Source: Chitinophaga pinensis (GTDB taxonomy: Bacteria; Bacteroidota; Bacteroidia; NS11-12g; UBA9320). From it: a stretch of 34,591 bases of DNA. This document shows, in pieces, positions 10,859 to 30,999 of the stretch. The first letter of the stretch is position 1. Every line of letters begins with the position of its first letter. The DNA is taken from positions 1-34,591 of the forward strand of contig CAMDGU010000030.1 of assembly GCA_945897885.1 (NCBI GenBank). Direction: 5' to 3'. Made by a program: the position numbers and the translations under genes. A model generated the notes under the pieces. It had not been told where the DNA came from and did no database searches. It was given only the letters and a program-made list of their open reading frames with translations.

Positions 10859-12166
10859 TTATTCCCCTTTTATTCGGGTAGATAAAAATGCTGCAAATAG
10901 CATAAAAACTCCACCTAACTGAACGGCTAGCATCCTATCGTTTCCGAGCCAATGACTCATTATCCATCCAAAAAATATGGATGCTATAATTTCAGGTAAA
11001 ACAATAAAGAAATTAAATATCCCCATATAAATACCAACCTTATTTTCAGGCAAACAATTACTAAGCATGGAATAAGGCATGGATAAAATACTAGCCCAGG
11101 CAATACCAACACCCGTCATTGATAAATAAAGAAATTCGGGTGTATCTATAAACCGAACTGAAATCAGTCCAATAGCACCTGCAGTAAGGCATAATGCATG
11201 TGTGTACTTTCTTCCAATTTTATTTGCTATAACTGGAATGAATAGGGCAAAAATAAACGTTATTAAATTGTAATAAGAAAGGGTAAGTCCGGCAAATTCA
11301 ACACCTTTGGTATATAATTCTGATGATTCATCAGGGGCATTAAACACATTACGGGCTACCGCTGAAGAATAATAAAACCACATTAAAAATAAACCCGGCC
11401 AGGTAAAAAACTGCACCCAAGCCAATTGCCGCATTTTTGTAGGCATGGCAGTTATCGCACTCAAAATTTCGTTAACTCCTCCGCCAAAACCTTTATTCGA
11501 TTCTTTAACTTTTTCTTTAAAATCCAATTCAGCAGGCGGGTACTCTTTGGTGGTGAAAATGGTATAAAGAACAGCACCCAAAAATGCTACCGCCCCAACA
11601 TAAAATGAATATTTAACACTTAGTGGAATTTCGCCGGCATTCCCTGTATTTACTATACCAAACCAATGAGTCATCATCCAAGGCAAGGCAGATGCCACAA
11701 CTGATCCCAAGCCTATAAAAAGACTTTGCATTGCAAAACCTCTTGTCCTTTGTTTATCATTTAGCTTATCTGTTACAAAGGCTCTAAAAGGTTCCATGCT
11801 TATGTTGATAGAGGTATCCAAAATCCAAAGTAAACCCGCTGCCATCCATAGTGCGGTGGAGTTTGGCATAAAAATAAGAGCAATCGAACTTAGTATAGCG
11901 CCAATTAAGAAATAAGGTCTTCGCCGTCCTAAAACCGGATGCCAGGTTCTATCACTTAAATAGCCTATGATTGGTTGAACTATAAAACCGGTAAGTGGTG
12001 CAGCTAGAAAAAGAAATGGAATATCTCCTGCTTCGGCACCCAGATATTCATAAATAGGACCCATATTGGCCATTTGCAATGCCCAGCCAAACTGGATACC
12101 CAAAAAACCAAAACTCATGTTCCATATTTGCCAAAAAGATAACTTTGGTTTTTCGATAGTACTCAT
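10859..12166 (-). CDS. MFS sugar transporter, SLC45/maltose-permease-like
   Basis: This is a 435-aa inner-membrane protein with about 12 hydrophobic segments. The first cytoplasmic loop contains GYLSDRTWHPVLGRRRPYFL, the D-R...GRRRP signature of the SLC45-like glycoside transporters that import sucrose or maltose by cation symport. The N-terminus LSFWQIWNMSFGFLGIQFGWALQ is also typical of that group. The gene is 31 nt downstream of the Nudix-type regulator on the same strand, so the two form an operon divergent from the GH65 and amylase operon. From this context I infer that it imports maltose or short maltodextrins from the periplasm. The specific substrate is not proven by sequence. Confidence 0.88.
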   Translation of the reverse strand: MSTIEKPKLSFWQIWNMSFGFLGIQFGWALQMANMGPIYEYLGAEAGDIPFLFLAAPLTGFIVQPIIGYLSDRTWHPVLGRRRPYFLIGAILSSIALIFMPNSTALWMAAGLLWILDTSINISMEPFRAFVTDKLNDKQRTRGFAMQSLFIGLGSVVASALPWMMTHWFGIVNTGNAGEIPLSVKYSFYVGAVAFLGAVLYTIFTTKEYPPAELDFKEKVKESNKGFGGGVNEILSAITAMPTKMRQLAWVQFFTWPGLFLMWFYYSSAVARNVFNAPDESSELYTKGVEFAGLTLSYYNLITFIFALFIPVIANKIGRKYTHALCLTAGAIGLISVRFIDTPEFLYLSMTGVGIAWASILSMPYSMLSNCLPENKVGIYMGIFNFFIVLPEIIASIFFGWIMSHWLGNDRMLAVQLGGVFMLFAAFLSTRIKGE

Positions 12167-12197: not shown

Positions 12198-12932
12198 TTA
12201 GATAAAATCTGGAGCTTCTTGATATTTTTTATTAAATCTGAAAAAACGGGCAGGCTTGTGATTTACTCCCTCTTGTTTTTCCTTTAAAGGTTTAATAATT
12301 CCTGATTTAATTATTTTCCGTCTAAAATTTCTTTTATCCAATTCTGTATTCAAAATTATTTCATACAACCTTTGCAAATGCGAAAGGGTAAATTTTTCTG
12401 GCATTAATTCAAAACCTGCCGGAATTTTATGAAGATCCTTTTTAAGTATACTGAGTGCCTTTTCTAAAATTATATTATGATCGAAGGCTAAATTTCCAAC
12501 CTCATTAATATTTACCCATGTTGCATTTTTTGCAAATCCTGATGGCGTGGGACTATAGCGTTCTAACCTAACCAATGAATAATATGCCACCGTAATAACT
12601 CTGGCTTCCGGTATTTCCCGGGTAGCTTCTAACCAACGTCTATCCTCGGGTTTACTTAATCTATTGGGGTTGCCAAAGGTTGCAAATTGTTCCAAGTATA
12701 AATCGCTAAGGTTTGTTAATTCTTTTAAAACTCGTTTAGCAGCATCGTCTAAATCTTCGTCCTCCTTAATTAAATTTCCCGGTAAAGCCATCGACCCACG
12801 ATCTGAAACCGAGTTTGTGCTTGGAAACTGCTCAATTAATAAAACTTTTAAGTCATTATTATCAAATCCAAAAATCACACAATCCACCGAGACATGAGGG
12901 TTAAGCTTAGAAATAGTTTGAAAATCTGCCAT
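12198..12932 (-). CDS. Nudix-domain transcriptional regulator (NrtR-like), likely sugar-responsive
   Basis: The 244-aa protein has an N-terminal Nudix fold (SVDCVIFGFDNNDLKVLLIEQF; MALPGNLIKEDEDLDDAAKR) followed by a C-terminal region that fits a winged-helix DNA-binding domain (PEKFTLSHLQRLYEIIL, LDKRNFRRKII, KPARFFRF). This is the architecture of NrtR-family repressors; related proteins in Bacteroidota control sugar pathways. The Nudix box is degraded: relative to GX5EX7REUXEEXGU it reads D for the first Glu and KRVLKE for REUXEE, so hydrolase activity is unlikely and a ligand-sensing role is inferred. It sits between the transporter gene and the divergent kinase gene, opposite a shared control region with an inverted repeat (13002-13014). 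It takes the place often held by a LacI-type regulator in maltose clusters. Confidence 0.87.
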   Translation of the reverse strand: MADFQTISKLNPHVSVDCVIFGFDNNDLKVLLIEQFPSTNSVSDRGSMALPGNLIKEDEDLDDAAKRVLKELTNLSDLYLEQFATFGNPNRLSKPEDRRWLEATREIPEARVITVAYYSLVRLERYSPTPSGFAKNATWVNINEVGNLAFDHNIILEKALSILKKDLHKIPAGFELMPEKFTLSHLQRLYEIILNTELDKRNFRRKIIKSGIIKPLKEKQEGVNHKPARFFRFNKKYQEAPDFI

Positions 12933-12959: not shown

Positions 12960-12988
12960 CAAAATTATATTTTCCAAGGCATTTCAAA
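12960..12988 (-). promoter_or_regulatory. Promoter of the Nudix regulator-MFS operon
   Basis: On the minus strand TTTG (12985-12988) is followed after 17 nt by TAATTTTG (12960-12967). Both elements match the Bacteroidota consensus (TTG, 17-23 nt, TAnnTTTG). The -7 box is 27 nt before the regulator ATG. It is the best two-box promoter in the window. Confidence 0.62.
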
Positions 12989-12997
12989 ACTATTTTC

Positions 12998-13023
12998 TTT
13001 GTGTAAATTTTACAATAAGTTTG
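12998..13023 (+). promoter_or_regulatory. Promoter of the kinase-pgmB-GH65 operon
   Basis: TAAGTTTG (13016-13023) matches TAnnTTTG exactly and is 34 nt before the kinase ATG. A TTTG (12998-13001) lies upstream with a 14-nt spacer, shorter than usual. It is back to back with the regulator promoter, so one bound protein could control both. Confidence 0.5.
13002..13014. promoter_or_regulatory. Candidate operator (inverted repeat) for the Nudix regulator
   Basis: The 13 bases are TGTAAA-T-TTTACA, a perfect 6-bp inverted repeat with a 1-nt centre. It fills the spacer between the TTTG and TAAGTTTG boxes of the plus-strand promoter and lies 14 nt from the -33 box of the divergent promoter. The position suits repression of the catabolic operon and autoregulation. 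Assignment to the Nudix protein rests on position only. Confidence 0.45.
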
Positions 13024-13057: not shown

Positions 13058-13921
13058 ATGCTTTTGGTAGCCGATAGTGGATCGACAAAATGTGACTGGA
13101 TTCTTGTAAAATCGAATGGCGAGAGATTAGAAACCAATACAATGGGTTTTAATCCTTTTTTTCATAATGAGGAGTTGATAGCGAGTGAAATTTCTAAAAA
13201 TGAAATCTTAATGTCTTATGCAGATAGGATATTAAATATTTATTTTTTTGGGGCAGGAGCCTCAAGTAAACAAAGAAATACCATTGTAGAAAATGGTTTA
13301 AAAAAAGTGTTCAAAAACACGGTAGAATTAAGGGTAGACCATGACCTAATTGGCGCTGCCATAGCTACCGCTGAAGATGACCCTGGAATTGCTTGTATTT
13401 TAGGAACCGGTTCTAACTCATGTTACTATGATGGGACAACGGTTCAGGAGGTGGTTCCTGCTTTGGGCTATATACTGGGCGATGAGGGTAGCGGGGCTTA
13501 TTTTGGAAAAATTTTATTAAGTAAATATCTTTATAAAAAACTACCGATTGAATTGGCTACTGCCCTTGAAAAAGAGTGTGGTGTAAGTAAAGAATCGATT
13601 TTTGAAGCCGTTTATAACAAACCAAATCCCAATGTGTATTTAGCTTCCTTTATGCGGTTTGCCCGCGACCACAATGACCATCCTTTTTTCAAAGAAATGA
13701 TTTACAAGGGTATTTCAGCATTTATTAATATTCATGTTTGGTGTTATGAAAATTTTAGGGAAGTGCCGGTTCATTTTGTTGGTTCTATTGCCTATTACTT
13801 TAAAGACACCCTGGAAGAAGTGGCCAAAAATTACAGATTTACTGTTGGTAAAATTGTTAAAAAACCTGTTACACCATTGGCTGATTATTATTGTAAAAAA
13901 CTCAATTTCCCAATCGTTTAA
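13058..13921 (+). CDS. BadF/BadG-type sugar kinase (GlcNAc-kinase-like), probable glucokinase
   Basis: The 287-aa cytoplasmic protein belongs to the ASKHA kinase fold as seen in BadF/BadG/BcrA/BcrD-type N-acetylglucosamine kinases. Visible motifs in order are ADSGSTKCDWIL (phosphate-1 loop, residues 5-16), VDHDLIGAA (with the likely catalytic Asp), ILGTGSNS (phosphate-2, Gly116 onward) and LGDEGSGAYFGK (141-146). Family members phosphorylate amino sugars or glucose with ATP. Here it opens the operon that also holds pgmB and GH65. Maltose phosphorolysis leaves free glucose, so I infer a glucose kinase role feeding glucose-6-phosphate. The alternative is a general GlcN/GlcNAc kinase. Start ATG is clear, with an upstream promoter and operator. 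It ends 11 nt before pgmB. Confidence 0.85.
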   Translation: MLLVADSGSTKCDWILVKSNGERLETNTMGFNPFFHNEELIASEISKNEILMSYADRILNIYFFGAGASSKQRNTIVENGLKKVFKNTVELRVDHDLIGAAIATAEDDPGIACILGTGSNSCYYDGTTVQEVVPALGYILGDEGSGAYFGKILLSKYLYKKLPIELATALEKECGVSKESIFEAVYNKPNPNVYLASFMRFARDHNDHPFFKEMIYKGISAFINIHVWCYENFREVPVHFVGSIAYYFKDTLEEVAKNYRFTVGKIVKKPVTPLADYYCKKLNFPIV

Positions 13922-13932
13922 AAAAACAGAGT

Positions 13933-14601
13933 GTGGAAGGTTATGCTTGTATTTTCGACCTCGATGGGGTAATTGTTGATACTGCAAAATATCACTTTTT
14001 GGCATGGCGTAAGCTTGCCAATGCTTTGGGATTTGATTTTACTGAAAACCAAAATGAATCGTTGAAGGGAATAAGCCGGGCTGAATCTCTGGATATAATT
14101 TTGGCTTGGGGAAACGTGGAACTTACCCATGCTGAAAAGGATGAATGGCTGAAAACCAAAAACAATTGGTATTTGGAACACGTGCTTACCATGAATGAAG
14201 AAGCGATACTTCCCGGAGCCAAGGAATTTATAACAATAGTTAAAAATGCTGGCTTTAAAATTGCTTTAGGCTCAGCCAGTAAAAATGCGGTATCCATTCT
14301 TGAAAAAGTAGGATTACTTAACCAATTTGATGCCATAATAGATGGAACAAAAACGACCAAAAGTAAACCCGACCCACAGGTTTTTACCATGTGTGCCGAT
14401 GAATTAGGAATTGCTTATAAAAACTGTGTGGTATTTGAAGATGCCGAAGCCGGTATAGAAGCCGCGCTAAGTGCAGGAATGGCAGCCATAGGAATTGGAA
14501 ATAAAACCATCCTAAACCGAGCCCTTTTTGCCGTAAATGACTTATCGGAAATGACTTTAGAAAAACTTCCATTCATTAATTCAAATACAATACCCCATTA
14601 A
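13933..14601 (+). CDS. pgmB: Beta-phosphoglucomutase
   Basis: This HAD-superfamily cytoplasmic enzyme converts beta-D-glucose-1-phosphate to glucose-6-phosphate. The 222-aa protein shows HAD motif I FDLDGVIVDT with the nucleophile Asp9 and acid/base Asp11, the cap-domain sequence LKGISRAESLDIIL typical of beta-PGM, motif II as LGSASKNA, the Lys region SKPDPQVF and motif III VVFEDAEAGIEAA. The start is GTG (GTG GAA GGT), 11 nt after the kinase stop; no ATG precedes motif I. It ends 3 nt before the GH65 gene. The pairing with an inverting GH65 phosphorylase, which makes the beta anomer, strongly supports the function. Confidence 0.95.
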   Translation: MEGYACIFDLDGVIVDTAKYHFLAWRKLANALGFDFTENQNESLKGISRAESLDIILAWGNVELTHAEKDEWLKTKNNWYLEHVLTMNEEAILPGAKEFITIVKNAGFKIALGSASKNAVSILEKVGLLNQFDAIIDGTKTTKSKPDPQVFTMCADELGIAYKNCVVFEDAEAGIEAALSAGMAAIGIGNKTILNRALFAVNDLSEMTLEKLPFINSNTIPH

Positions 14602-14604
14602 TCA

Positions 14605-16899
14605 ATGAAAAACTACATAAAACCCGACGAATGGTTGATACTTGAAGAAGGCTTTGAACCTGAAAATAATCGGGTATCAGAAAGTATCTTTAGTATTGGA
14701 AATGGAAAAATGGGCCAGCGGGCCAATTTTGAAGAAAAATACTCGGGTGATAGCTTGCAGGGTAGTTATATAGCCGGTGTTTATTACCCCGATAAAACCC
14801 GCGTGGGTTGGTGGAAAAACGGTTATCCTGAGTATTTTGCAAAAGTACCCAATGCCACCAATTGGATTGGTTTTAATATTACAATAAACGGAATAGAATT
14901 GGATTTGGCTACCTGCAAAATCAATCATTTTAGCAGGGAGCTCAATATGAAAGAAGGCTACTTGAAACGCAAGTTTGAAGCCGTTTTGCCAAATAACGAA
15001 ATAATACAGGTTCAATCCACCCGTTTTTGCAGCTTGGCTCAGGATGCCATAGCCGCTATAGAATACAAAATAACACCCGTTTCATCCACGGCTGCTATTA
15101 GTGTAGAAGCTTATTTGGATGGAAACATAAAAAATGAAGATGCCAATTACGACGAACTTTTTTGGGATGAAATAAGTCAATGGGCTGAGGGAAACAAAGC
15201 TTGTGTAGCGGTTCAAACCAGAAAAACACTGTTTGATGTAGCCACTGCCATGCAGTTTCAGGCATTTGTTGATGATACCCAAATTACAGCTTACCCCACT
15301 CCAATTACTTTAAAAAAATATGCTGCTTTAAAAAGCGACTATTCCATTTCTAAAGGACAAACCCTATCGCTTTATAAATATGTTGCCAACCTATCAAGCA
15401 TGGATTATGACAGCGATGGCATTGAAAACATGGCCATTTCCAAAGCTGAAAAAGCTGCCGGTATTGGTTTTGAAGCTTTAAAAAAAGAACAAGCCGCAGC
15501 GTGGGCTGCCAAATGGGATGAATCGGACATTACCATAACGGGAGATGTTTCGGCACAACAAGCCATTCGTTTCAATATTTTTCAACTTAACCAAACCTAC
15601 TCAGGAAACGATGCCCGATTAAATATTGGTCCAAAGGGATTTACCGGAGAAAAATATGGTGGCAGCACCTATTGGGATACCGAAGCTTATTGTTTGCCTT
15701 TTTACCAGGCCACCGCCAGTGAGGAAGTAGCCCGAAATTTATTAATTTACCGCTACAATCATTTACCAAAAGCCATTGAAAATGCCGAAAAATTAGGCTT
15801 TAAAAATGGAGCGGCACTTTACCCAATGGTAACTATGAACGGCGAAGAATGCCATAATGAATGGGAAATAACCTTTGAAGAAATTCACAGAAACGGAGCC
15901 ATTGCCTATGCCATTTACGATTATGTAAAATACACGGGCGACAAAAAATACATTGCAGATTATGGTTTGGAAGTGCTGATTGGAATAGCTCGTTTTTGGG
16001 CACAGCGCATCACCTTAAGTAAGGATAAGCAAAAGTTTGTAATGCTTGGTGTTACAGGCCCCAATGAGTTTGAAAACAATGTAAACAACAACTGGTATAC
16101 CAATAAAATTGCTTGTTGGTGTATGGCATATTGTGCTCAAAATTGTGAAACCCAAAAACTTGAAAATTTTGAAGAATGGCAAAGAATTTCAAAAGCTGCC
16201 GAGTTTGATGAATCCGAACTTGGAACATGGAAACAAATAGTTGCCAATATGTATTATCCGTTTGACGAAAAGTTAAATATCTTTTTGCAACAGGATGGAT
16301 TTTTGGATAAAGAACAAGTAACAGTAAATAATTTATTGCCCTCCGAACGCCCTATTGTGGAACATTGGAGTTGGGACAGAATTTTAAGAAGCATTTTCAT
16401 AAAACAAGCCGACGTTTTGCAAGGCATTTATTTTTTTGAAGATGAGTTTGATTTAGATTCAATAAAGCGCCACTTTGATTATTATGAACCAAGAACCGTG
16501 CATGAAAGTTCACTGTCACCCTGCGTTCATTCCATTTTGGCTGCTAAAATTGGTGACAGAAAGAAAGCCTATGAATTTTACCTCCGAACAGCCCGATTGG
16601 ATTTAGACAATTATAATAATGACACCAAAGATGGCCTTCACATTACCAGTATGGCAGGCACTTGGCTTACTATTGTAAAAGGTTTTGCAGGAATGCGAGT
16701 GATAAATGATGAATTAACGTTTACTCCGTTTTTACCTGATGAATGGAAAGAATTTTCATTTAAGGTGCGATTTAGAAATGCTGTGTTAAAAATCACTGTA
16801 TCCAAGTCAGAAACTAAGATTGAGCAATTGAGCGGGGATAAAGTAAAGGTTAAAATTATTGAAAATAATGGCGCAAAAAAAGGGGTGGTTGCTCATTGA
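14605..16899 (+). CDS. GH65 glycoside phosphorylase, probable maltose phosphorylase
   Basis: GH65 phosphorylases split alpha-linked disaccharides with phosphate to beta-glucose-1-phosphate and glucose. The 764-aa protein has normal family length and no signal peptide, so it acts in the cytoplasm. It has the N-terminal beta-sandwich (IFSIGNGKMGQRANFEE), the (alpha/alpha)6 barrel with YWDTEAYCLPFYQ, and VTGPNEFENNVNNNWYTN with the predicted general acid Glu488. That number is close to Glu487, which I recall for the Lactobacillus maltose phosphorylase. The downstream RTVHESSLSPCVHS and DGLHITSMAGTW motifs are also present. Trehalose, kojibiose or nigerose phosphorylase are alternatives from sequence alone, but the neighbouring amylases and SLC45-like importer favour maltose. 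Its stop codon lies inside a strong hairpin (16882-16912). Confidence 0.92.
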   Translation: MKNYIKPDEWLILEEGFEPENNRVSESIFSIGNGKMGQRANFEEKYSGDSLQGSYIAGVYYPDKTRVGWWKNGYPEYFAKVPNATNWIGFNITINGIELDLATCKINHFSRELNMKEGYLKRKFEAVLPNNEIIQVQSTRFCSLAQDAIAAIEYKITPVSSTAAISVEAYLDGNIKNEDANYDELFWDEISQWAEGNKACVAVQTRKTLFDVATAMQFQAFVDDTQITAYPTPITLKKYAALKSDYSISKGQTLSLYKYVANLSSMDYDSDGIENMAISKAEKAAGIGFEALKKEQAAAWAAKWDESDITITGDVSAQQAIRFNIFQLNQTYSGNDARLNIGPKGFTGEKYGGSTYWDTEAYCLPFYQATASEEVARNLLIYRYNHLPKAIENAEKLGFKNGAALYPMVTMNGEECHNEWEITFEEIHRNGAIAYAIYDYVKYTGDKKYIADYGLEVLIGIARFWAQRITLSKDKQKFVMLGVTGPNEFENNVNNNWYTNKIACWCMAYCAQNCETQKLENFEEWQRISKAAEFDESELGTWKQIVANMYYPFDEKLNIFLQQDGFLDKEQVTVNNLLPSERPIVEHWSWDRILRSIFIKQADVLQGIYFFEDEFDLDSIKRHFDYYEPRTVHESSLSPCVHSILAAKIGDRKKAYEFYLRTARLDLDNYNNDTKDGLHITSMAGTWLTIVKGFAGMRVINDELTFTPFLPDEWKEFSFKVRFRNAVLKITVSKSETKIEQLSGDKVKVKIIENNGAKKGVVAH

Positions 16900-16912: not shown

Positions 16913-17032
16913 GTACCTAATTAACCCTTATTTATGAAAACACAGACTTTAAGAATCACTTCTAAAAAGGCTGCTAAATAAATAACGAGTGCAAAGTAAA
17001 TTGGTTACACATTTTGAAAAAGTTTTTAAACG

Positions 17033-19426
17033 ATGAGTAAAATAAAAAAACCGTTATATATTATCTTCTGTGTAGTGTTTACACTTTCGTGCGGGCAACA
17101 AAAGGCTACTATTAATGATGACGAAATTCTTTATGGGCTGGCCTCCCCTATCACTATCAATTCAGAAGACAGCACTACCATTTTACTTCAGGATTATTTT
17201 ATCAAACCTGAAACGGTAGATTCTGTTTCGAAGCCAATTGGGTACAAAATTTACCGAGATAAAAAAGCGGGAATAGTTTCTTTAATCGCCGAATCCAAAT
17301 CTTCCAGCAATCCGGGGAATATCAGGTTTTGGGTAAATGGCAAATCCTTTGATATTCCTACCAAAAATCGTTATAAAAAATCTATAAATTTTACTTTTAA
17401 AAATAGTGAAGCCATAGATTCAGTGCAGTTGACAGGTGATTTTAATGGATGGACCCCGCATAAAAATCCCTTAAAAAAATCAGGCGATACATTTTCCTGT
17501 GACCTTAATCTTACTCCCGGGCAATACGGTTATCAAATTGTAAAAAACGGCAAATGGGGACTGGATGAAAATAATCCTTTAAAAATAAGTAACGGACAGG
17601 GTGGGTTTAATTCTGTAATAAAAGTGGAGGATTTAAATCCCAATCTGGTTCCAAAAATTTTTACCGCCACGGGTTCTGATAAAATGTTTTCAATAATTAT
17701 TACCGGTGCCGGAAAGTTGCAGATGGCAACTTACCTAAACAACCATCTGCTTAAAGAAAAAGAAATTAAAGAAACGCCCTATTCTAAAGTTTATATTTTT
17801 GAAATTCCTGAAGTTGCGAAGTCTCAAAAACGCGGCCACATTCGTGTATTTTGCAACAATGAATTTACCTCTGGGAATGATCTTTTGATTCCATTGCAAA
17901 ATGGAAAGATAATAACCGACCCCAGTCTTTTAACCCGAAGCGACTTTGAATCCAATATCCTTTATTTCATGATGGTGGACCGTTTTAACAATGGAACCAC
18001 AGCCAATGATTACAAAATGGATACTAACCTTGTGAAACCAAAAGCTCAGTATTATGGTGGTGATATCAAGGGGATTTTGGCCAAACTAAAGGAAGGATAT
18101 TTTAAAAATTTGGGTATAAATGCTATTTGGATTTCACCAATAACACAAAATCCATTAGGAGCCTGGGGGCAATTTAAAGACCCCGACACTAAATTTTCCG
18201 CTTATCATGGCTATTGGCCAACAACCCTTACCACGGTTGATTTTAGATTTGGTACTGAAGCGGATGTAAAGGAACTTTTGGAAGAGGCTCACAAACAAAA
18301 CATCAATGTATTTTTAGACTATGTAGCCCATCATTTGCACATTGAACATCCCATTATCAAAAAAAATCCAACATGGGTTACGCCACTCTATTTGCCTGAT
18401 GGCACAATGAATACAGAGCGATGGGATGATTACCGATTAACCACATGGTTTGATACCTTTATGCCAACCCTAAACTTATCTGACCAAAAAGTAACCGATT
18501 ATATGGTAGATAGTGCATTGCATTGGGTTAGGGATGTTCCGTTTGATGGATTCAGACATGATGCCACCAAACATATTCCGTTAAATTTTTGGAGAACGTT
18601 AACAAAAAAAATAAAAACAGAAGTTGAGATTCCCCGAAAACAGCATATTTACCAAATTGGTGAAACATACGGAAACAATGAATTGATAAGCAGTTATGTA
18701 AATACAGGTATGCTGGATGCTCAATTTGATTTTAATCTTTACGATGCTCTTTTACCTGTTTTTACTGCAGAAAACGAATCCTTCAAGCGGGTAAGTTCAG
18801 CCCTAAAACAAAGTTTCAGCTATTATGGATTTCATCATTTAATGGGTAACATTACCGGTAATCAGGATAAACCAAGATTTATATCTTATGCCGATGGTTC
18901 TATAAATTCATCCATACCATGGCAAGAAACCAAACGAATGGGTTGGAAAAAAAACATACAGGTAAAGGACACACTAGCCTATAAAAAATTGGCCGCTGCT
19001 CATGCATTTAACCTTACTATTCCGGGAGTTCCAATTATTTACTACGGCGATGAGTTCGGCATGCCGGGGGCAAATGACCCTGACAACCGAAGAATGATGA
19101 AATTTTCAGGATTATCAAACAATGAGACCTGGCTTAAAGAAACTACTACCAAATTGGCTGAAATGCGAAAAAACAGCATGGCTTTGATGTATGGCGATTT
19201 TCAGGAATTGAGGGTAGATGATAACATTTTTGCTTATAGCCGCAATTATTTTGGAGAAACCGTTTGGGTTATTTTTAACAAAGGAAAAACAACTACAACT
19301 TTCCAAAACGAGCGATTAGCAGGAAAAGAAACCGTACTGTTTGGCAATCAGCCTTCCAATAAAACAAAGGCCTTAAGTATTGATATTGAGCCATGGTCGT
19401 TTGCTATTATTAAATGGAATAACTAA
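17033..19426 (+). CDS. GH13 alpha-amylase family lipoprotein with N-terminal glycogen-binding-like domain
   Basis: The 797-aa product starts MSKIKKPLYIIFCVVFTLSCG, a lipoprotein signal with lipobox TLSC, so it is anchored in an outer membrane or periplasmic face. Residues about 117-200 look like a CBM48/E-set domain (VQLTGDFNGWTPHKNP ... GQYGYQIVKNGKWGLD). The GH13 barrel begins at LYFMMVDRFNNG and shows YVAHH, the nucleophile Asp510 in DGFRHDATKH, acid/base Glu544 in YQIGETYGN and the third acid Asp612 in TGNQDKPR. The usual His before that Asp is Gln here. A C-terminal beta domain follows. It should cut starch, maltodextrin or cyclodextrin-like glucans. The gene lies 133 bp after the GH65 gene and 20 bp before the second amylase gene. 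Confidence 0.9.
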   Translation: MSKIKKPLYIIFCVVFTLSCGQQKATINDDEILYGLASPITINSEDSTTILLQDYFIKPETVDSVSKPIGYKIYRDKKAGIVSLIAESKSSSNPGNIRFWVNGKSFDIPTKNRYKKSINFTFKNSEAIDSVQLTGDFNGWTPHKNPLKKSGDTFSCDLNLTPGQYGYQIVKNGKWGLDENNPLKISNGQGGFNSVIKVEDLNPNLVPKIFTATGSDKMFSIIITGAGKLQMATYLNNHLLKEKEIKETPYSKVYIFEIPEVAKSQKRGHIRVFCNNEFTSGNDLLIPLQNGKIITDPSLLTRSDFESNILYFMMVDRFNNGTTANDYKMDTNLVKPKAQYYGGDIKGILAKLKEGYFKNLGINAIWISPITQNPLGAWGQFKDPDTKFSAYHGYWPTTLTTVDFRFGTEADVKELLEEAHKQNINVFLDYVAHHLHIEHPIIKKNPTWVTPLYLPDGTMNTERWDDYRLTTWFDTFMPTLNLSDQKVTDYMVDSALHWVRDVPFDGFRHDATKHIPLNFWRTLTKKIKTEVEIPRKQHIYQIGETYGNNELISSYVNTGMLDAQFDFNLYDALLPVFTAENESFKRVSSALKQSFSYYGFHHLMGNITGNQDKPRFISYADGSINSSIPWQETKRMGWKKNIQVKDTLAYKKLAAAHAFNLTIPGVPIIYYGDEFGMPGANDPDNRRMMKFSGLSNNETWLKETTTKLAEMRKNSMALMYGDFQELRVDDNIFAYSRNYFGETVWVIFNKGKTTTTFQNERLAGKETVLFGNQPSNKTKALSIDIEPWSFAIIKWNN

Positions 19427-19446: not shown

Positions 19447-20844
19447 ATGACAAAAACATTTATAAAATTTACCCTTGCTCTTCTTTTTGCAACCTTAATT
19501 TTTAACAGTTGCCAGCAAAAATCAAAGGATGAAAAAGACGAAAAAACACAAACCGACGGACAGGCAGATTTGCCTTGGTTAAAAAATGCCGTGATTTACG
19601 AAGTAAACCTCCGTCAGTTTTCAGCTTCCGGAAAATTTAAAGATTTTGAAGTTCGTTTGGATTCTATAAAAAAATTGGGAGTTGATATTTTATGGTTTAT
19701 GCCTTTGCAGCCTATAGGTATTAAAAACCGTAAAGGTTCATTGGGAAGCTACTACTCTATTAAGGATTATATGGCTGTAAATCCTGAATTTGGTACCTTG
19801 GATGAGTTTAGAAATTTGGTAGAAAAATGTCATCAAAAAGGCTTTAAAGTTATATTGGATTGGGTTGGTAATCATTCCTCATGGGATAATAAACTTATAA
19901 CCGAACACCCCGATTGGTATACCAAAGACAGCAGCGGAAAAATAATAGCTCCCGTGCCTGATTGGAGCGATGTAGCCGACCTGAATTATGAAAACAAAGA
20001 ACTACGAGGCTACATGATAAATGCCATGAAATGGTGGATTGACGAGTGTGATTTGGATGGTTTTAGATGCGATGTGGCCATGATGATTCCTACTGATTTT
20101 TGGGTAGAGGCCACCAAAGAATTAAATCAAACAAAAAAAGTGTTTATGCTTGCCGAAGCCGAACAGCCCGACCACATGCTCAAAGCATTTCATGCTTGCT
20201 ATGGCTGGGAGTTTCATCATATTCTTAAAGAAATTTATAAAGGAAACAAAAATGCAGACAGTTTGAGAAAGTACTTTGAAAAAACTTCTGACATTTACCC
20301 TGCCGAAGCCATAAAAATGCATTTTGTGGCCAATCATGACGAAAACACTTGGAACGGAACCACCAAGGAATCCTATGGTGAATCGGAAGATGCCATGACT
20401 GCGCTTAGCTTTACACTTGGTGGATTGCCCATGATATACAATGGTATGGAAGCCGGATTGGACAAGCGTTTAAAGTTTTTTGATAAAGACCCAATAGACT
20501 GGAATAAAGCCAACGGAGCAAGCCGTTTTGAATTTTACAAAACCTTGGCAGCTATTCGTCACAAAAACCCAGCTATTTGGACCAACATTGACGGGCAAAC
20601 CAATACTCAAATTTTTAAAACAACGAAGGAAGTGTTTGCTTTTATAAAACAATCAGGAAATAATAGAGTGCTGGTTGTTGCCAATCTTTCAAGCAAGACA
20701 GTTAAAATGGATGCTTTAGAAATTCCGGGTTTGGAACAATTCAGTTTAAGACTTTATAAAAACATGAAAACAGATGGGGAGCATCTTTATGAACTAGGCC
20801 CTTGGGGATATTCGGTAAGCACAGTGAATGAACCAACAGAATAA
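19447..20844 (+). CDS. GH13 alpha-amylase family lipoprotein, compact
   Basis: The 465-aa product has a lipoprotein signal (FTLALLFATLIFNSCQQ) followed by a Lys/Asp-rich linker, then directly a GH13 barrel without an accessory domain. Motifs: AVIYEVNLRQFS at the barrel start, VILDWVGNHSSW, nucleophile Asp209 in GFRCDVAMM, acid/base Glu237 in MLAEAEQPD, and Asp298 with its preceding His in VANHDENTW. All three catalytic acids are present. It is shorter than the upstream amylase and lacks its glucan-binding domain, so the two probably differ in substrate size. The DUF1801 gene follows after 12 nt. No SusC/SusD pair accompanies these enzymes in the window. Confidence 0.9.
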   Translation: MTKTFIKFTLALLFATLIFNSCQQKSKDEKDEKTQTDGQADLPWLKNAVIYEVNLRQFSASGKFKDFEVRLDSIKKLGVDILWFMPLQPIGIKNRKGSLGSYYSIKDYMAVNPEFGTLDEFRNLVEKCHQKGFKVILDWVGNHSSWDNKLITEHPDWYTKDSSGKIIAPVPDWSDVADLNYENKELRGYMINAMKWWIDECDLDGFRCDVAMMIPTDFWVEATKELNQTKKVFMLAEAEQPDHMLKAFHACYGWEFHHILKEIYKGNKNADSLRKYFEKTSDIYPAEAIKMHFVANHDENTWNGTTKESYGESEDAMTALSFTLGGLPMIYNGMEAGLDKRLKFFDKDPIDWNKANGASRFEFYKTLAAIRHKNPAIWTNIDGQTNTQIFKTTKEVFAFIKQSGNNRVLVVANLSSKTVKMDALEIPGLEQFSLRLYKNMKTDGEHLYELGPWGYSVSTVNEPTE

Positions 20845-25113: not shown

Positions 25114-28035
25114 ATGAAAAAGACAATAGCCACCCTAATTCTATGCCTGGTATTAAATTACCCTTTGTTTGCTCAAAAATTATGGGACCAAAAAACTAAC
25201 TATCCCAGTAGCCAAAGAAATAACGCTACAGGTTTTTCAATCAATGGTAAAGGATATATTGGCTTAGGACAAAATCCAAGTGGATCAAAATTTACAGATT
25301 TTTACGAATACGATCCTTCTACGAACAAATGGACTCAAAAAGCAAATTATACTGGACCAGGGTTAGCTGGATGTACAGGTTTTTCAGCTAATGGAAAGGG
25401 GTATGTGTGTTTTGGGGTTAACAGTTCAGGGGTTAACCAAAAAGAATTATGGGAGTATACACCAAACTCTAATTCATGGACTCAAAAAGCCACTTTCCCC
25501 GGCACTGCCAGATACCATGCCGGCTGTTTTGTTATTAATGATACTGCTTTTATAATTGGTGGTAATCCTGGAGGTTCTCCTTATTTATCTGATGTTTGGA
25601 TGTATGTGCCTGCCACAAATACCTGGACTCAAAAAGCCAACTTCGGTGGTGGAAACCGAGCTGGAGGAACAGGATTCACAGTAAATGGTGTTGGATATTT
25701 TGGTACAGGTATTACTAGCGCTACTTCTCCCCAAAAAGACGTTTGGAAATATAATAAATCCAAAGATACATGGTCTAGTATTGCTAATTTACCTTCAGCA
25801 GCTTGCTCCGGTGCTATAGGTTTTGGAATAGGACTTAAAGGATATTTAGGAGCAGGTTATGACGTAACGAATTTTTTAAAAGATATTTATGAGTATGACC
25901 CTAAAGCTAATACTTGGAAAAAAACAGATTCTATTCCATCTTCTCAAAGTGTAAGAGGTTTTTCTGTTTCTTTCGTTATTGGTGGCAGTGCTTATTTTGG
26001 TACAGGATATGGAACAGCGGTTAGTAATTCTCTAAATGATTTTTGGTCACTTACACCAAAAATACAATGTGTTGCCTATTTTTTAACCGACCCATATAAT
26101 CAATCCGTAAATCTGAATGATACCGCAAAATTTAGTGCGTTATCAAACGATACCAGTGCCACTTATAAGTGGCAAATGAATGCAGGAACAGGTTTTAAAG
26201 ACTTAAGTGATGGTGGCCAATATTCCGGCTCAAAAACTAAAAAGTTATCTGTAGCCAACGTAAAATATGCAACTAACAATAATTTAAAATTTAGGTGCAT
26301 TGCCACCGGAAAAACTTGTTCTGACTCATCCTCCAGCGCCACCTTAACTGTTATTTGTCCTACAATTATCAAAACTTACCCAACCAATCAAACAGGAAAC
26401 AATGGAACAAATGTTAAATTCAATATTTCAGCAATTTATTCAGGAACCACCTATCAATGGCAAAAAGATGATGGTACCGGATTTAAAGATATAACCAACG
26501 GTGGTCAGTTTGCAGGAGTTGATAATGATACTTTATCAATAAATGACCTGCTATATTCCAATAATGGTCTCAAAGTTAGATGCAATGCATCCTATGACGG
26601 ATGTACATCAACATCATCAATTGTCTTGTTAACTGTTACATGCAAAAGCATCATAAAAAATCAACCTTCTAACACAACTGTTGTTACAGGAAATAAGACA
26701 TCCATAAGTTTAAATGTTTTTGATGCCGGAACAACCTTTCAATGGAAGACTAAAATTGGCACTTCGTTTCAAAACCTTATTAATGCAGGACAATACTATG
26801 GTGTTACTTCTGATTCATTAAAAATTACACCGGCCGATATATCTAATAAAAATCAACAATTTAAGTGTCTGGTTAATTACAAAGGTTGCAAGGATTCTTC
26901 TAAAATTGTTACACTTGATGTGTTATGCAAGCCTCTTGTTTCTGCCCAGCCGCAAAACCAGAATAAGACGGAAGGTGAAAAAGCACTATTTACTGCATCT
27001 TCTGCAGAAACCAATACTTCCTTTTTATGGCAAATAAATGGTGGTACAGGTTATCAAAATTTAAATAACTCCGGCTCAATAAATGGGGCAACCAACGATA
27101 GTTTAACTATTTCCAATCTCACTTTGGCAGATAACAACCGTGTATACAGATGCATTTTATCTTCAGGCGGATGTTTTGATACTACAAAAAATGCCACATT
27201 ACTGGTTCGTTGCAAAACAATACTGAACACACAACCTAAAAATGTAAAAGCCTTTGTTTCTAGCAATGCTATTTTAAGTTTTTCAAGCTTTGAGGCCAAT
27301 GCTACTTTTGCCTGGCAATCAGATGTTGGATTTGGATATCAAAATCTTAGCAATGCAGGTCAATACAATGGGGTGAATAATGATTCCTTAATTATTTCAA
27401 ATGTTTCGTTATCAAATAATAATCAAAAATTTAGATGTATTCTTACTTTGGGCAATTGTACGGAGACCACTGAAATTGCTACCCTTCAGGTTATTTGTAA
27501 CACTATTATTGATAGACAGCCTGTGAATAAAACTGCTGCTATTTCGGGAAGTACATTTTTGAATGTGTCTGCATTTGATTCTAAGGCAACCTTTAGATGG
27601 CAATCAGATGTTGGATTTGGTTATCAAAACCTTAGCAATGCAGGACAGTACAAAGGAGTAAATGACGACACCCTCACAATTCTTGATTTAACCACGGGTA
27701 ACAATAACCAAACCTTTAGATGTATCATTGGCAGCGGAGCCTGCAGTGATACGACCAATATTGCAAGCATCACAGTAAAATCAGCCGGAATTACTCAAAA
27801 TAAATATGGTAAAATATCGGTATTCCCAAACCCAAGCAATGGTTTTATTCAGTTAAAAATTAACCCGGAATTATTTAATAGTTCATTCAATTTAATAGAC
27901 CAACAAGGAAGAATAATTATAGCAGGAAAGCTAACAGAAACCAATACCAAAATAAGTATTGAGCATTTAGCCAGTGGAGTATATATTCTTCAAACTGAAC
28001 CAACACTGACAAGGACATTGATAATCAAACAATAA
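25114..28035 (+). CDS. T9SS-secreted kelch-repeat / Ig-like repeat surface protein A
   Basis: This 973-aa protein has a signal peptide (MKKTIATLILCLVLNYPLFAQ). Residues about 22-318 hold roughly six kelch-type repeats of near 50 residues, each with a GxGYxGxG strand and a DxYEYDPxxNxWTQKAxF strand, predicted to form a beta-propeller. From Cys319 to about 890 there are six Ig-like repeats of about 95 residues. Each has a core TxxWQxxxGxGFxxL, then GQYxGxxxDxLxI, then a FRCxxxxxxC pair of cysteines suited to disulfides. Residues about 896-973 are a T9SS type A sorting domain (VFPNPSNG at 903-910, LIDQQGRII, HLASGVYILQ). It is expected to cross the outer membrane by T9SS and be anchored at the surface. 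Function is unknown; adhesion or glycan binding is inferred. A close paralog follows after 33 bp. Confidence 0.9.
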   Translation: MKKTIATLILCLVLNYPLFAQKLWDQKTNYPSSQRNNATGFSINGKGYIGLGQNPSGSKFTDFYEYDPSTNKWTQKANYTGPGLAGCTGFSANGKGYVCFGVNSSGVNQKELWEYTPNSNSWTQKATFPGTARYHAGCFVINDTAFIIGGNPGGSPYLSDVWMYVPATNTWTQKANFGGGNRAGGTGFTVNGVGYFGTGITSATSPQKDVWKYNKSKDTWSSIANLPSAACSGAIGFGIGLKGYLGAGYDVTNFLKDIYEYDPKANTWKKTDSIPSSQSVRGFSVSFVIGGSAYFGTGYGTAVSNSLNDFWSLTPKIQCVAYFLTDPYNQSVNLNDTAKFSALSNDTSATYKWQMNAGTGFKDLSDGGQYSGSKTKKLSVANVKYATNNNLKFRCIATGKTCSDSSSSATLTVICPTIIKTYPTNQTGNNGTNVKFNISAIYSGTTYQWQKDDGTGFKDITNGGQFAGVDNDTLSINDLLYSNNGLKVRCNASYDGCTSTSSIVLLTVTCKSIIKNQPSNTTVVTGNKTSISLNVFDAGTTFQWKTKIGTSFQNLINAGQYYGVTSDSLKITPADISNKNQQFKCLVNYKGCKDSSKIVTLDVLCKPLVSAQPQNQNKTEGEKALFTASSAETNTSFLWQINGGTGYQNLNNSGSINGATNDSLTISNLTLADNNRVYRCILSSGGCFDTTKNATLLVRCKTILNTQPKNVKAFVSSNAILSFSSFEANATFAWQSDVGFGYQNLSNAGQYNGVNNDSLIISNVSLSNNNQKFRCILTLGNCTETTEIATLQVICNTIIDRQPVNKTAAISGSTFLNVSAFDSKATFRWQSDVGFGYQNLSNAGQYKGVNDDTLTILDLTTGNNNQTFRCIIGSGACSDTTNIASITVKSAGITQNKYGKISVFPNPSNGFIQLKINPELFNSSFNLIDQQGRIIIAGKLTETNTKISIEHLASGVYILQTEPTLTRTLIIKQ

Positions 28036-28068: not shown

Positions 28069-30999
28069 ATGAAAAAAATATTTTTCTTACTCGTGCTAGG
28101 TGTGTTGCTTTCTACCTCAGCGTTTTCTCAAAAATCATGGAATCAAAAAAACAATTTTTCTGGAACAGCCAGAAATAGTTCCATCGCATTTAGCATTAAT
28201 GGTAAAGGATATTTAGGATTAGGTCAAAATGCGAGTGGGACCAAACTTTTTGATTTTTTTGAATATGACCCAACTAATAACTCTTGGACTCAAAAGGCAA
28301 ATTACCCTGGAGCAGGAAGTTTCGCAGCTAGCTCATTTGTAATCAATGGAAAAGGATATGTTTGCTTTGGAGGTTCTAATGCAGGTAATCCTCAGGGAGA
28401 TTTATGGGAATACAACCCTACCACCAATGCTTGGACACAAAAAGCAAATTTCCCAGGGACAAAACGATATGGAGCTAGTTGGTTTGTTATAAGTGATACT
28501 GCTTTTTTAATGACTGGTTCTTCCGGAGGTTCTCCTTATTTAAGTGACGTTTGGATGTATATACCTTCAACAAATACATGGTCTCAAAAGGCTAATTTTC
28601 CAGGAGGCAGCAGATCTCATGGTGTAGGATTTACAGTAGACGGCATTGGGTATTTTGGCACTGGTATCAGTAGTAGTTCTTCTGCCACCAAAGATATTTG
28701 GAAGTATAACAAAGCCAAAGACACTTGGTCAAAGATTGCCGATATTCCTGGCGGAAATATTACCGGGACGATTGCGTTCGAAATTGATGGTAGAGGGTAC
28801 TTAGGAACTGGTTATACCTTGTCAAGCTTTTTAAAGGATTATTACGAATACAATCCAGCAGTCAACACATGGACTAAGGTTGATTCAGTGCCGTCGTCTC
28901 ACAATGCAAGAGGAGGTTCCATCGCTTTCGTGATAAATAGAAGTGCTTATATTGGTACTGGATATGCATCTACAACAGGTACTGGTGCTGGTTTAAATGA
29001 TTTGTGGTCATATACCCCAAAATCAAGATGTGCTAGTGATTTTTCAACCGAACCCTATAGTCAATCTGTTAAAATGTATGATTCTGCTATTTTCATTGCT
29101 AAATCCATTGATACTGCAGCTACTTACCAATGGCAGATTAATACCGGTTCCGGATTTTCAAACGTTTCCAACGGAGGTCAATATTCTGGGGCAAAAACGA
29201 AGCGATTTGCGATAGCCAATGCAAAGGTTGCTTCTAATAGTGGCCATAAATTTAGATGTGTTGCCATGGGCAAAAACTGCTCCGACACTTCCATTATTGC
29301 CACTCTTACTGTAACGTGCCCTACCCTGTTTAAAACCGAACCTACGAATCAAACAGGTAATAATGGAAGTTCTGTTACCTTTACAGTTGCCCCTATATAT
29401 TCAGCCACTACCTTTCTTTGGCAAAAAGATGATGGAACTGGATATAAAGATATTACCAACTCAGGCCAGTATAATGGGTTTGATAATGATACTTTAACAA
29501 TGAATGACCTATTGTATTCCAATAATAATTATAAGTTTAGATGCGTGGCTTCTTATGATGGTTGTGTATACACTTCTGCCGCTGCTGTGCTCACAGTAAC
29601 TTGCAAATCTATAATCAAAACCCAACCTGGCGATTTAAAAGTAAACAGGGGGGCTAAGGCTATTTTTGTTGTAGGCACGTTTGATGCAGGCACCACATTT
29701 CAATGGAAAATAAAAAACGGCACCACATTTAAAACCCTTTCAGATGCCGGACAATACTATGGAACAATGAATGATTCCCTTCTAATCAATCCTGCAAGTA
29801 TGTCAAACAAAAATCAGCAATACAAATGTGTGATGAACTACAAAGGCTGTAAAGATTCTACAAAGATTGTTACCTTAGATGTTTTATGCACTCCTATGGT
29901 ATCTTCAAACCCAATAAACCAAGATAAAACCGAAAATGAAAAAGCAATATTCTCGGTAACCTCTCTTGATGCTAATGCCACATTTACCTGGCAAATGAAT
30001 ATTGGTGCAGGGTTTCAAAACCTAAACGCCTCCTCACAAGTATCAGGAATAGATAATGATTCCTTAACAATTTCAAATATTACTTTGGCTAATAACAATC
30101 AAAATTTCAGATGTATTCTTGCATCTGACGGTTGTTTTGACACTTCGCAAACTGCCATACTAAAGGTGAAATGCAAAACCCTAATAAATTCTAAACCTAA
30201 AAGCAAAAAAGTTTTTGTAGGAGATAATGCTTTATTAAGTTTAAGCGTTTTAGAGTCAACTGCTAAATTAGCATGGCAATCCGATGTAGGTTTTGGGTAT
30301 CAAAACCTTAGTGATGCAGGCCAATACAATGGTGTAAGCAATGACTCACTTTCTATTGCCAATGTTTCATTTGCCAATAACAATCAAAAATTTAGATGCA
30401 TACTAACCCTTGGCAATTGTACAGAAACTACCGATGTTGTAACCCTAAGTACCATTTGCAAGCCCGGAATTATGGACCAACCTACCAATAAATCAGCCAC
30501 TGTTGGAGGTACAGCTTACTTTAGAGTGTCAGCAGCCCTGCCAAATACAACCTATAAATGGCAAACGGATTTAGGATTAGGATTTCAAAATTTAAGCAAC
30601 GCAGGTCAGTTTAAAGGAGCCAATAAAGACACTTTACATATAAGCAATTTAACGGCAGTTAATGATAATCAAGTATTCAGATGTATACTTAGCAGCGGTG
30701 CATGCAATGACACTTCTGAAATTGCAACTTTAACCGTTAAAGCATCAGGAAGCTCTAAAGACTTTCAAAATCAAAATGTAACTATTTTCCCAAATCCGAG
30801 TAATGGATTAGTTGATATAAAAATCACTCCTACCTTATGGAATAATTTCTTTAAAATAATAGACCAACAAGGAAGAGTAGTTGCCAATGGAAAACTATCA
30901 GAAAGCAACACTCCTATTAGCATTGAACATTTAGCCAATGGAGTTTATATCCTTCAAACTGAGCCAACAATTACTAGAACATTACTTATAAAAAATTAA
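28069..30999 (+). CDS. T9SS-secreted kelch-repeat / Ig-like repeat surface protein B (paralog of A)
   Basis: This 976-aa protein matches its upstream neighbour along its whole length in the same order. It has a signal peptide (FFLLVLGVLLSTSAFSQ), about six kelch repeats to residue 320, six Ig-like repeats from Cys321 to about 890, and a type A sorting domain (VTIFPNPSNG from 904, LANGVYILQTEP). The sorting domains are the most alike part and the kelch blades vary in their loops. Only 33 bp separate the two genes, so they are probably co-transcribed. The pattern says tandem duplication followed by divergence. The ends are intact with no frameshift. A 36-bp palindrome 19 bp downstream probably ends the transcript. 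Confidence 0.9.
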   Translation: MKKIFFLLVLGVLLSTSAFSQKSWNQKNNFSGTARNSSIAFSINGKGYLGLGQNASGTKLFDFFEYDPTNNSWTQKANYPGAGSFAASSFVINGKGYVCFGGSNAGNPQGDLWEYNPTTNAWTQKANFPGTKRYGASWFVISDTAFLMTGSSGGSPYLSDVWMYIPSTNTWSQKANFPGGSRSHGVGFTVDGIGYFGTGISSSSSATKDIWKYNKAKDTWSKIADIPGGNITGTIAFEIDGRGYLGTGYTLSSFLKDYYEYNPAVNTWTKVDSVPSSHNARGGSIAFVINRSAYIGTGYASTTGTGAGLNDLWSYTPKSRCASDFSTEPYSQSVKMYDSAIFIAKSIDTAATYQWQINTGSGFSNVSNGGQYSGAKTKRFAIANAKVASNSGHKFRCVAMGKNCSDTSIIATLTVTCPTLFKTEPTNQTGNNGSSVTFTVAPIYSATTFLWQKDDGTGYKDITNSGQYNGFDNDTLTMNDLLYSNNNYKFRCVASYDGCVYTSAAAVLTVTCKSIIKTQPGDLKVNRGAKAIFVVGTFDAGTTFQWKIKNGTTFKTLSDAGQYYGTMNDSLLINPASMSNKNQQYKCVMNYKGCKDSTKIVTLDVLCTPMVSSNPINQDKTENEKAIFSVTSLDANATFTWQMNIGAGFQNLNASSQVSGIDNDSLTISNITLANNNQNFRCILASDGCFDTSQTAILKVKCKTLINSKPKSKKVFVGDNALLSLSVLESTAKLAWQSDVGFGYQNLSDAGQYNGVSNDSLSIANVSFANNNQKFRCILTLGNCTETTDVVTLSTICKPGIMDQPTNKSATVGGTAYFRVSAALPNTTYKWQTDLGLGFQNLSNAGQFKGANKDTLHISNLTAVNDNQVFRCILSSGACNDTSEIATLTVKASGSSKDFQNQNVTIFPNPSNGLVDIKITPTLWNNFFKIIDQQGRVVANGKLSESNTPISIEHLANGVYILQTEPTITRTLLIKN

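Follow-up and report, generated by a model that had tools for sequence, protein, structure and literature searches.

A conserved palindrome between the divergent promoters of a Bacteroidota maltose locus as the probable operator of an AraR-like Nudix repressor

The window, i.e., the whole 34,591-nt stretch of DNA analyzed here, contains a maltose locus organized as two divergent transcription units. On the minus strand, a regulator gene (12198–12932), encoding a Nudix domain with a degraded box and an NrtR winged helix, lies upstream of a gene for an MFS sugar transporter of the GPH/sucrose-symporter-like type (10859–12166), assigned from domain matches and from linkage in relatives. On the plus strand, the operon opens with a BadF/hexokinase-like sugar kinase (13058–13921), below the Pfam cut-off and close to PDB entries 1zxo and 8oqw, and continues with a beta-phosphoglucomutase (13933–14601; NCBIfam TIGR01990, above cut-off), a GH65 maltose phosphorylase (14605–16899; PDB 1h54 at 8e-221), and two GH13 alpha-glucan enzymes that are predicted lipoproteins, recognized by domain matches (17033–19426 and 19447–20844). 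By context, the kinase is probably a glucokinase; despite the maltose operon setting, the solved proteins nearest to it are annotated as MurNAc or GlcNAc kinases. No xylose genes were found at the locus. Elsewhere in the window, two long secreted proteins (973 and 976 aa) are encoded in tandem at 25114–28035 and 28069–30999; they closely resemble each other, also at their C-terminal ends, and contain repeated motifs.

The 125-bp intergenic region between the two units holds the 13-bp inverted repeat TGTAAA-T-TTTACA (TGTAAATTTTACA) at 13002–13014, the single exact match to this sequence in the window. The first-pass annotation had reported the repeat and placed it in the spacer of the plus-strand promoter and close to the −33 box of the other, and both observations largely hold; the minus-strand −33 element lies inside the distal arm of the repeat. 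Comparison with relatives extends the repeat to a predicted 17-bp operator, TGTGTAAATTTTACAAT (13000–13016, no strand assigned), of which the repeat is the palindromic core. The −7 box of the kinase/beta-phosphoglucomutase/GH65/GH13 operon, TAAGTTTG (13016–13023, plus strand), has a position conserved in relatives and shares one base with the 3′ edge of the operator. The probable −33 element of this promoter is an imperfect TTTT at 12993–12996 on the same strand, assigned by position only, with a 19-nt spacer to the −7 box; it is more likely than TTTG at 12998–13001 because the latter would leave a 14-nt spacer, too short for the known Bacteroidota promoter. In the opposite direction, the regulator/transporter promoter has its −7 box, TAGTTTTG, at 12985–12992 (minus strand) and its −33 at about 13012–13016, which falls within the operator. 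Thus, one operator lies within both divergent promoters, covering the plus-strand spacer and the minus-strand −33. Because the 3′ edge of the operator runs into the −7 box, occlusion of RNA polymerase, and hence repression, is the natural reading, and activation instead of repression appears unlikely from the predicted geometry.

The regulator matches PF00293 (4e-7) and PF21906 (4.9e-26), and among solved structures AraR of Bacteroides thetaiotaomicron is nearest to it (3.5e-40, 36% identity). Its predicted model (pLDDT 89.5) finds its fold in 5bs6 and 3gz6 and matches AraR structures at Z 20–22. In the Nudix box, GNLIKEDEDLDDAAKRVLKELTNL, RE is changed to RV and EE to EL, and catalytic glutamates are lost in the same manner as in AraR. 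Judged from sequence and modeled fold, the protein is a catalytically dead Nudix transcription factor of the NrtR/AraR family, in keeping with the Nudix/winged-helix regulator with a degraded box described at the outset. Genome-wide, no other protein matches its sequence or the AraR_C family. In the phylogenetic tree, the regulator belongs to clade A, which makes up one side of a branch with good support (96/95); BtAraR sits on a long branch of unsure placement, and the XylR sequence lies outside the tree.

BtAraR (BT0354; PDB 5bs6, 5dd4, 5deq) is the NrtR-family L-arabinose repressor of Bacteroides; it senses free L-arabinose through residues R34, R86, and H131, and its crystal operator, GTGT-TACTTTT-ACAC, is contacted by K179, R180, N181, and K184 (PMC4666351). 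The window regulator resembles BtAraR in domain order, dead Nudix box, fold, recognition helix, and sugar-gene neighborhood, and the window site, GTGT-AAATTTT-ACAA, has the same 7-bp spacing as GTGT-N7-ACAC. The recognition-helix residues K/R-R-N-F are kept across clade A; in the window regulator, K, R, and N are retained, and K184 is replaced by Arg. Since the consensus half-sites, the spacing, and key DNA-contact residues match those of AraR, the 13-bp repeat is very probably the central portion of a 17-bp operator of AraR type, the docking site of a sugar-sensing repressor. However, the two proteins belong to different clades, and the window and its relatives have maltose/starch genes (the relatives also glycolysis genes) rather than arabinose genes. 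BtXylR (BT0791), set beside the window regulator by description only, is an NrtR-family sugar regulator of Bacteroidota, but with a predicted xylose regulon (PMC4666351, PMC3878776). The Shewanella NrtR (PDB 3gz5, 3gz6, 3gz8) shares the fold, the domain order, and the principle of a dimeric repressor released by a Nudix-pocket ligand, whereas it governs NAD genes, senses ADP-ribose, and is more distant (1.7e-14, versus 3.5e-40 for AraR).

We searched the upstream regions of orthologous loci for the site, as the first-pass annotation had proposed, and the operator was recovered. An orthologous clade A regulator was found in 13 relatives of the same family, divergent from a kinase or maltose phosphorylase gene in 13/13. 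The consensus AGTGT-N7-ACACT, which we defined from relatives and scored over its 10 outer positions, lies 5′ of the regulator in all 13, in each case as AGTGTAN5TACACT followed by AAGTTTG in the intergenic DNA. A wider scan of bacterial and archaeal genomes gave 332 relatives, from which 80 loci were taken for analysis; the same-family and wider sets overlap at least at one contig, carried as both L091 and L031. Upstream DNA was available for 78 loci: 73 have GTGT-N7-ACA or its one-sided variant, and in 67 the regulator is divergent from kinase or maltose genes; some clade members are without maltose genes nearby. After dropping proteins more than 85% identical, 38 non-redundant loci from elsewhere in Bacteroidota were left, with GTGT-N7-ACAC present in 29 and other spacers from 1 to 15 never above two loci. 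Strong sites, with 9 or 10 of 10 operator positions, occur in 31 of the 38 and are absent in about a fifth; scrambled motifs reach at most 8 of 10 positions. In the 683 kb that the loci comprise, 75 strong sites were counted, 68 of them in promoter-like positions; six control motifs gave 0–3. Of 47 aligned loci, 26 have the target −7 box, TAnnTTTG, at a constant distance from the operator, overlapping its last base in 23 and directly following it in three, and another group of loci has a TAnnTTTG-like box just 5′ of the operator. Each of these arrangements is compatible with repression by occlusion.

Outside the locus, the exact motif AGTGTAN5TACACT occurs once in the 3.03-Mb assembly, on contig C43 (AGTGTAAAAAATACACT), with a cyclomaltodextrinase gene on one side and genes for a secreted amylase and a starch-binding protein on the other; the equivalent divergent starch pair carries an operator site in three relatives (L091, L105, and L115). 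A one-mismatch site lies 5′ of a SusC/SusD pair on contig C39, which is no more than a possible regulon member, given that one-mismatch sites are expected by chance. Whole-genome counts of AGTGTN7ACACT with mismatches gave no clear excess over the control, and none at two mismatches, so that only strong sites, taken together with the genes around them, carry information. Operator sites stand in front of susC, amylase, and transporter genes in relatives. Within the window, a possible second operator, TGTGTAGTGTTTACACT (9/10; 17069–17085, no strand assigned), lies within the codons for the signal peptide of the first GH13 gene and is doubtful; two relatives (L040 and L043) have an operator site at the start codon of the same gene. 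The weaker GTAA-N5-TTAC pair near 17000 (16996–17008), originally offered as a second site, reaches about 7/10 by hand count, which is the background level, and was discarded.

The regulator and the maltose genes also travel together, and with the operator they are found side by side in many environmental Bacteroidota. Among 108 genomes of the order, the regulator clade is present in 54 (by score, one from fragments), maltose phosphorylase in 51, and both in 47; in 41 of these 47, the two genes share a contig and lie at most 4.05 kb apart (raw counts that ignore kinship). Six congeners are without the regulator, maltose phosphorylase, and cyclomaltodextrinase. The first-pass annotation had proposed a Nudix-family maltose switch, and its core stands, in that the regulator is co-conserved with the repeat and the maltose genes; the proposal is refined to a 17-bp AraR-type operator and a putative regulon that reaches starch genes elsewhere in the genome. 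The sugar phosphate or similar ligand that it suggested is kept only as a candidate.

The ligand pocket departs from that of AraR. AraR pocket residues were mapped by sequence alignment, which also placed the insertion described below. R86, V92, F129, and H131 are kept in the window regulator as R91, V112, F150, and H152, whereas the R34 position, Arg in most clade members, is Gln35, and the F49 position is Leu54. The window regulator was considered as an AraR orthologue responding to L-arabinose, and rejected, given Gln35 in place of R34 and no arabinose gene cluster. In all aligned clade A members, an insertion of about 15 residues follows right after the R86 position (window R91), with D97, W100, and R105 invariant; it is missing from AraR and clade B. 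Because this insertion sits beside the sugar pocket, arabinose is disfavored as effector, and the aligned sequences argue for a different or larger ligand in clade A.

What clade A chiefly senses bears on how the maltose operon should be viewed. The clade could respond mainly to glucose or glycolytic metabolites (e.g., glucose-6-phosphate or beta-glucose-1-phosphate), with the maltose operon as one of several targets, an account compatible with the operator assignment and to which we give not quite even odds. In twelve loci, a phosphofructokinase gene (pfkA) faces the regulator across the operator, followed in some by gapA (glyceraldehyde-3-phosphate dehydrogenase) or by an aldehyde dehydrogenase gene, whose product we take to be GapN-like. 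Because pfkA, and sometimes gapA, faces the regulator in this way, the signal read by the clade may be the state of glucose metabolism and not maltose itself, and the clade may govern glycolysis. The kinase is the commonest partner gene of the regulator, and two of the pfkA loci (L155 and L160) have no maltose genes in the stretch examined. However, the window operon contains neither pfkA nor gapA, and three other loci (L033, L037, and L041) keep maltose phosphorylase without a kinase next to the regulator.

Assignment of the operator to another, unlinked factor (e.g., a Crp-like protein), with the Nudix gene as a bystander, is improbable. Palindromes of the TGT/ACA type are recognized by factors of several families, and the assignment to the regulator was made by comparison only; but the site tracks the regulator clade, has exactly the half-sites and spacing of the AraR operator, and does not occur upstream of the sister clade B, which has Pro at the R180 position. 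Clade B Nudix paralogues were tried as bearers of the same operator and rejected, their upstream best being only 6–8/10 and a single 9/10 match arising spuriously from consecutive N letters. The sister clade (L044–L053 and L056), which lacks the insertion and carries that Pro where the DNA-intercalating Arg is expected, adjoins sugar transporters and glycoside hydrolases. LacI-family MalR, of a type often found in maltose clusters according to the first-pass annotation, has an equal role at an equal kind of maltose operon but belongs to an unrelated protein family, and no LacI-family protein (PF00356) was found in this genome, the same profile matching in 9 of 14 genomes as a control.

A functionless coincidence of AT-rich intergenic DNA is less probable still, although the repeat by itself is unremarkable. 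Perfect 6-1-6 inverted repeats number 20 in the window versus 17.4 ± 4 expected, and the simulated P for one such repeat in this AT-rich 125-bp intergenic region is ~0.16; the bare palindrome is significant neither window-wide nor in its own intergenic region. The case for function comes instead from conservation in relatives: the site recurs in orthologous loci with its spacing and its position relative to the −7 box fixed, which refutes coincidence in practice. Two outer positions of the window operator differ from the consensus, and at 8/10 it is weaker than the copies in relatives, with P ~0.012 in its own intergenic region. It is also the best PWM match in the window, scoring 15.6 bits where the null maximum is 8.5 ± 2.7 bits and the highest of 60 simulations 16.1 bits. 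Least probable of all is an NrtR of NAD metabolism responding to ADP-ribose, as suggested by the single NCBIfam match, an ADPR-responsive NtrR model far below cut-off (122.8 versus 400 bits), and opposed by AraR as the closest relative and by neighbors and strong operator sites that belong to sugar genes, with no NAD synthesis genes among those examined.

Our main reading, with a probability of roughly 0.87, is that the repeat is the operator core of the adjacent NrtR/AraR-family repressor, which would shut both promoters on binding, be released from DNA by a sugar metabolite, and also control the unlinked starch divergon. From the conservation and spacing of the operator, its overlap with promoters, the gene linkage, the regulon sites, the protein family, and the fold, as seen by comparison, we infer DNA binding, repression, induction, and a ligand in the following form. 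A regulator dimer would bind the AGTGT-N7-ACACT-type site at 13000–13016, which lies between the −33 and −7 elements of the kinase/beta-phosphoglucomutase/maltose phosphorylase/GH13 operon and also covers the −33 of the promoter for the regulator and transporter genes, and would turn off both. Upon entry of maltose or starch sugars into the cell, a sugar metabolite would bind the dead Nudix pocket and turn the winged helices, so that the DNA is released. The same repressor would control the cyclomaltodextrinase/starch-binding protein/amylase divergon on C43 and possibly the SusC/SusD pair on C39.

The module is thus, with good support, of a known kind, the AraR-like NrtR repressors, with a starch/maltose regulon, in a clade for which a literature search, with subscription papers and RegPrecise pages outside its reach, found no experimental description; nor did it find a prior description of such control in these Bacteroidota. 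For Bacteroidota that are mostly uncultured, the analysis predicts which regulator acts on starch and maltose use, through which operator and on which genes, with glycolysis genes added in relatives; it would extend the sugar-sensing NrtR branch from pentoses to alpha-glucans. More tentatively, and at somewhat less than even odds, this dead-Nudix clade could be a widespread controller of carbon flow in Bacteroidota, sensing an intracellular glucose-derived metabolite via its clade-specific pocket insertion and using a single operator to coordinate glycolysis (pfkA, gapA) with the uptake of starch and the phosphorolysis of maltose. The pocket insertion, with its invariant Trp and Arg, makes ligand specificity in this fold directly testable.
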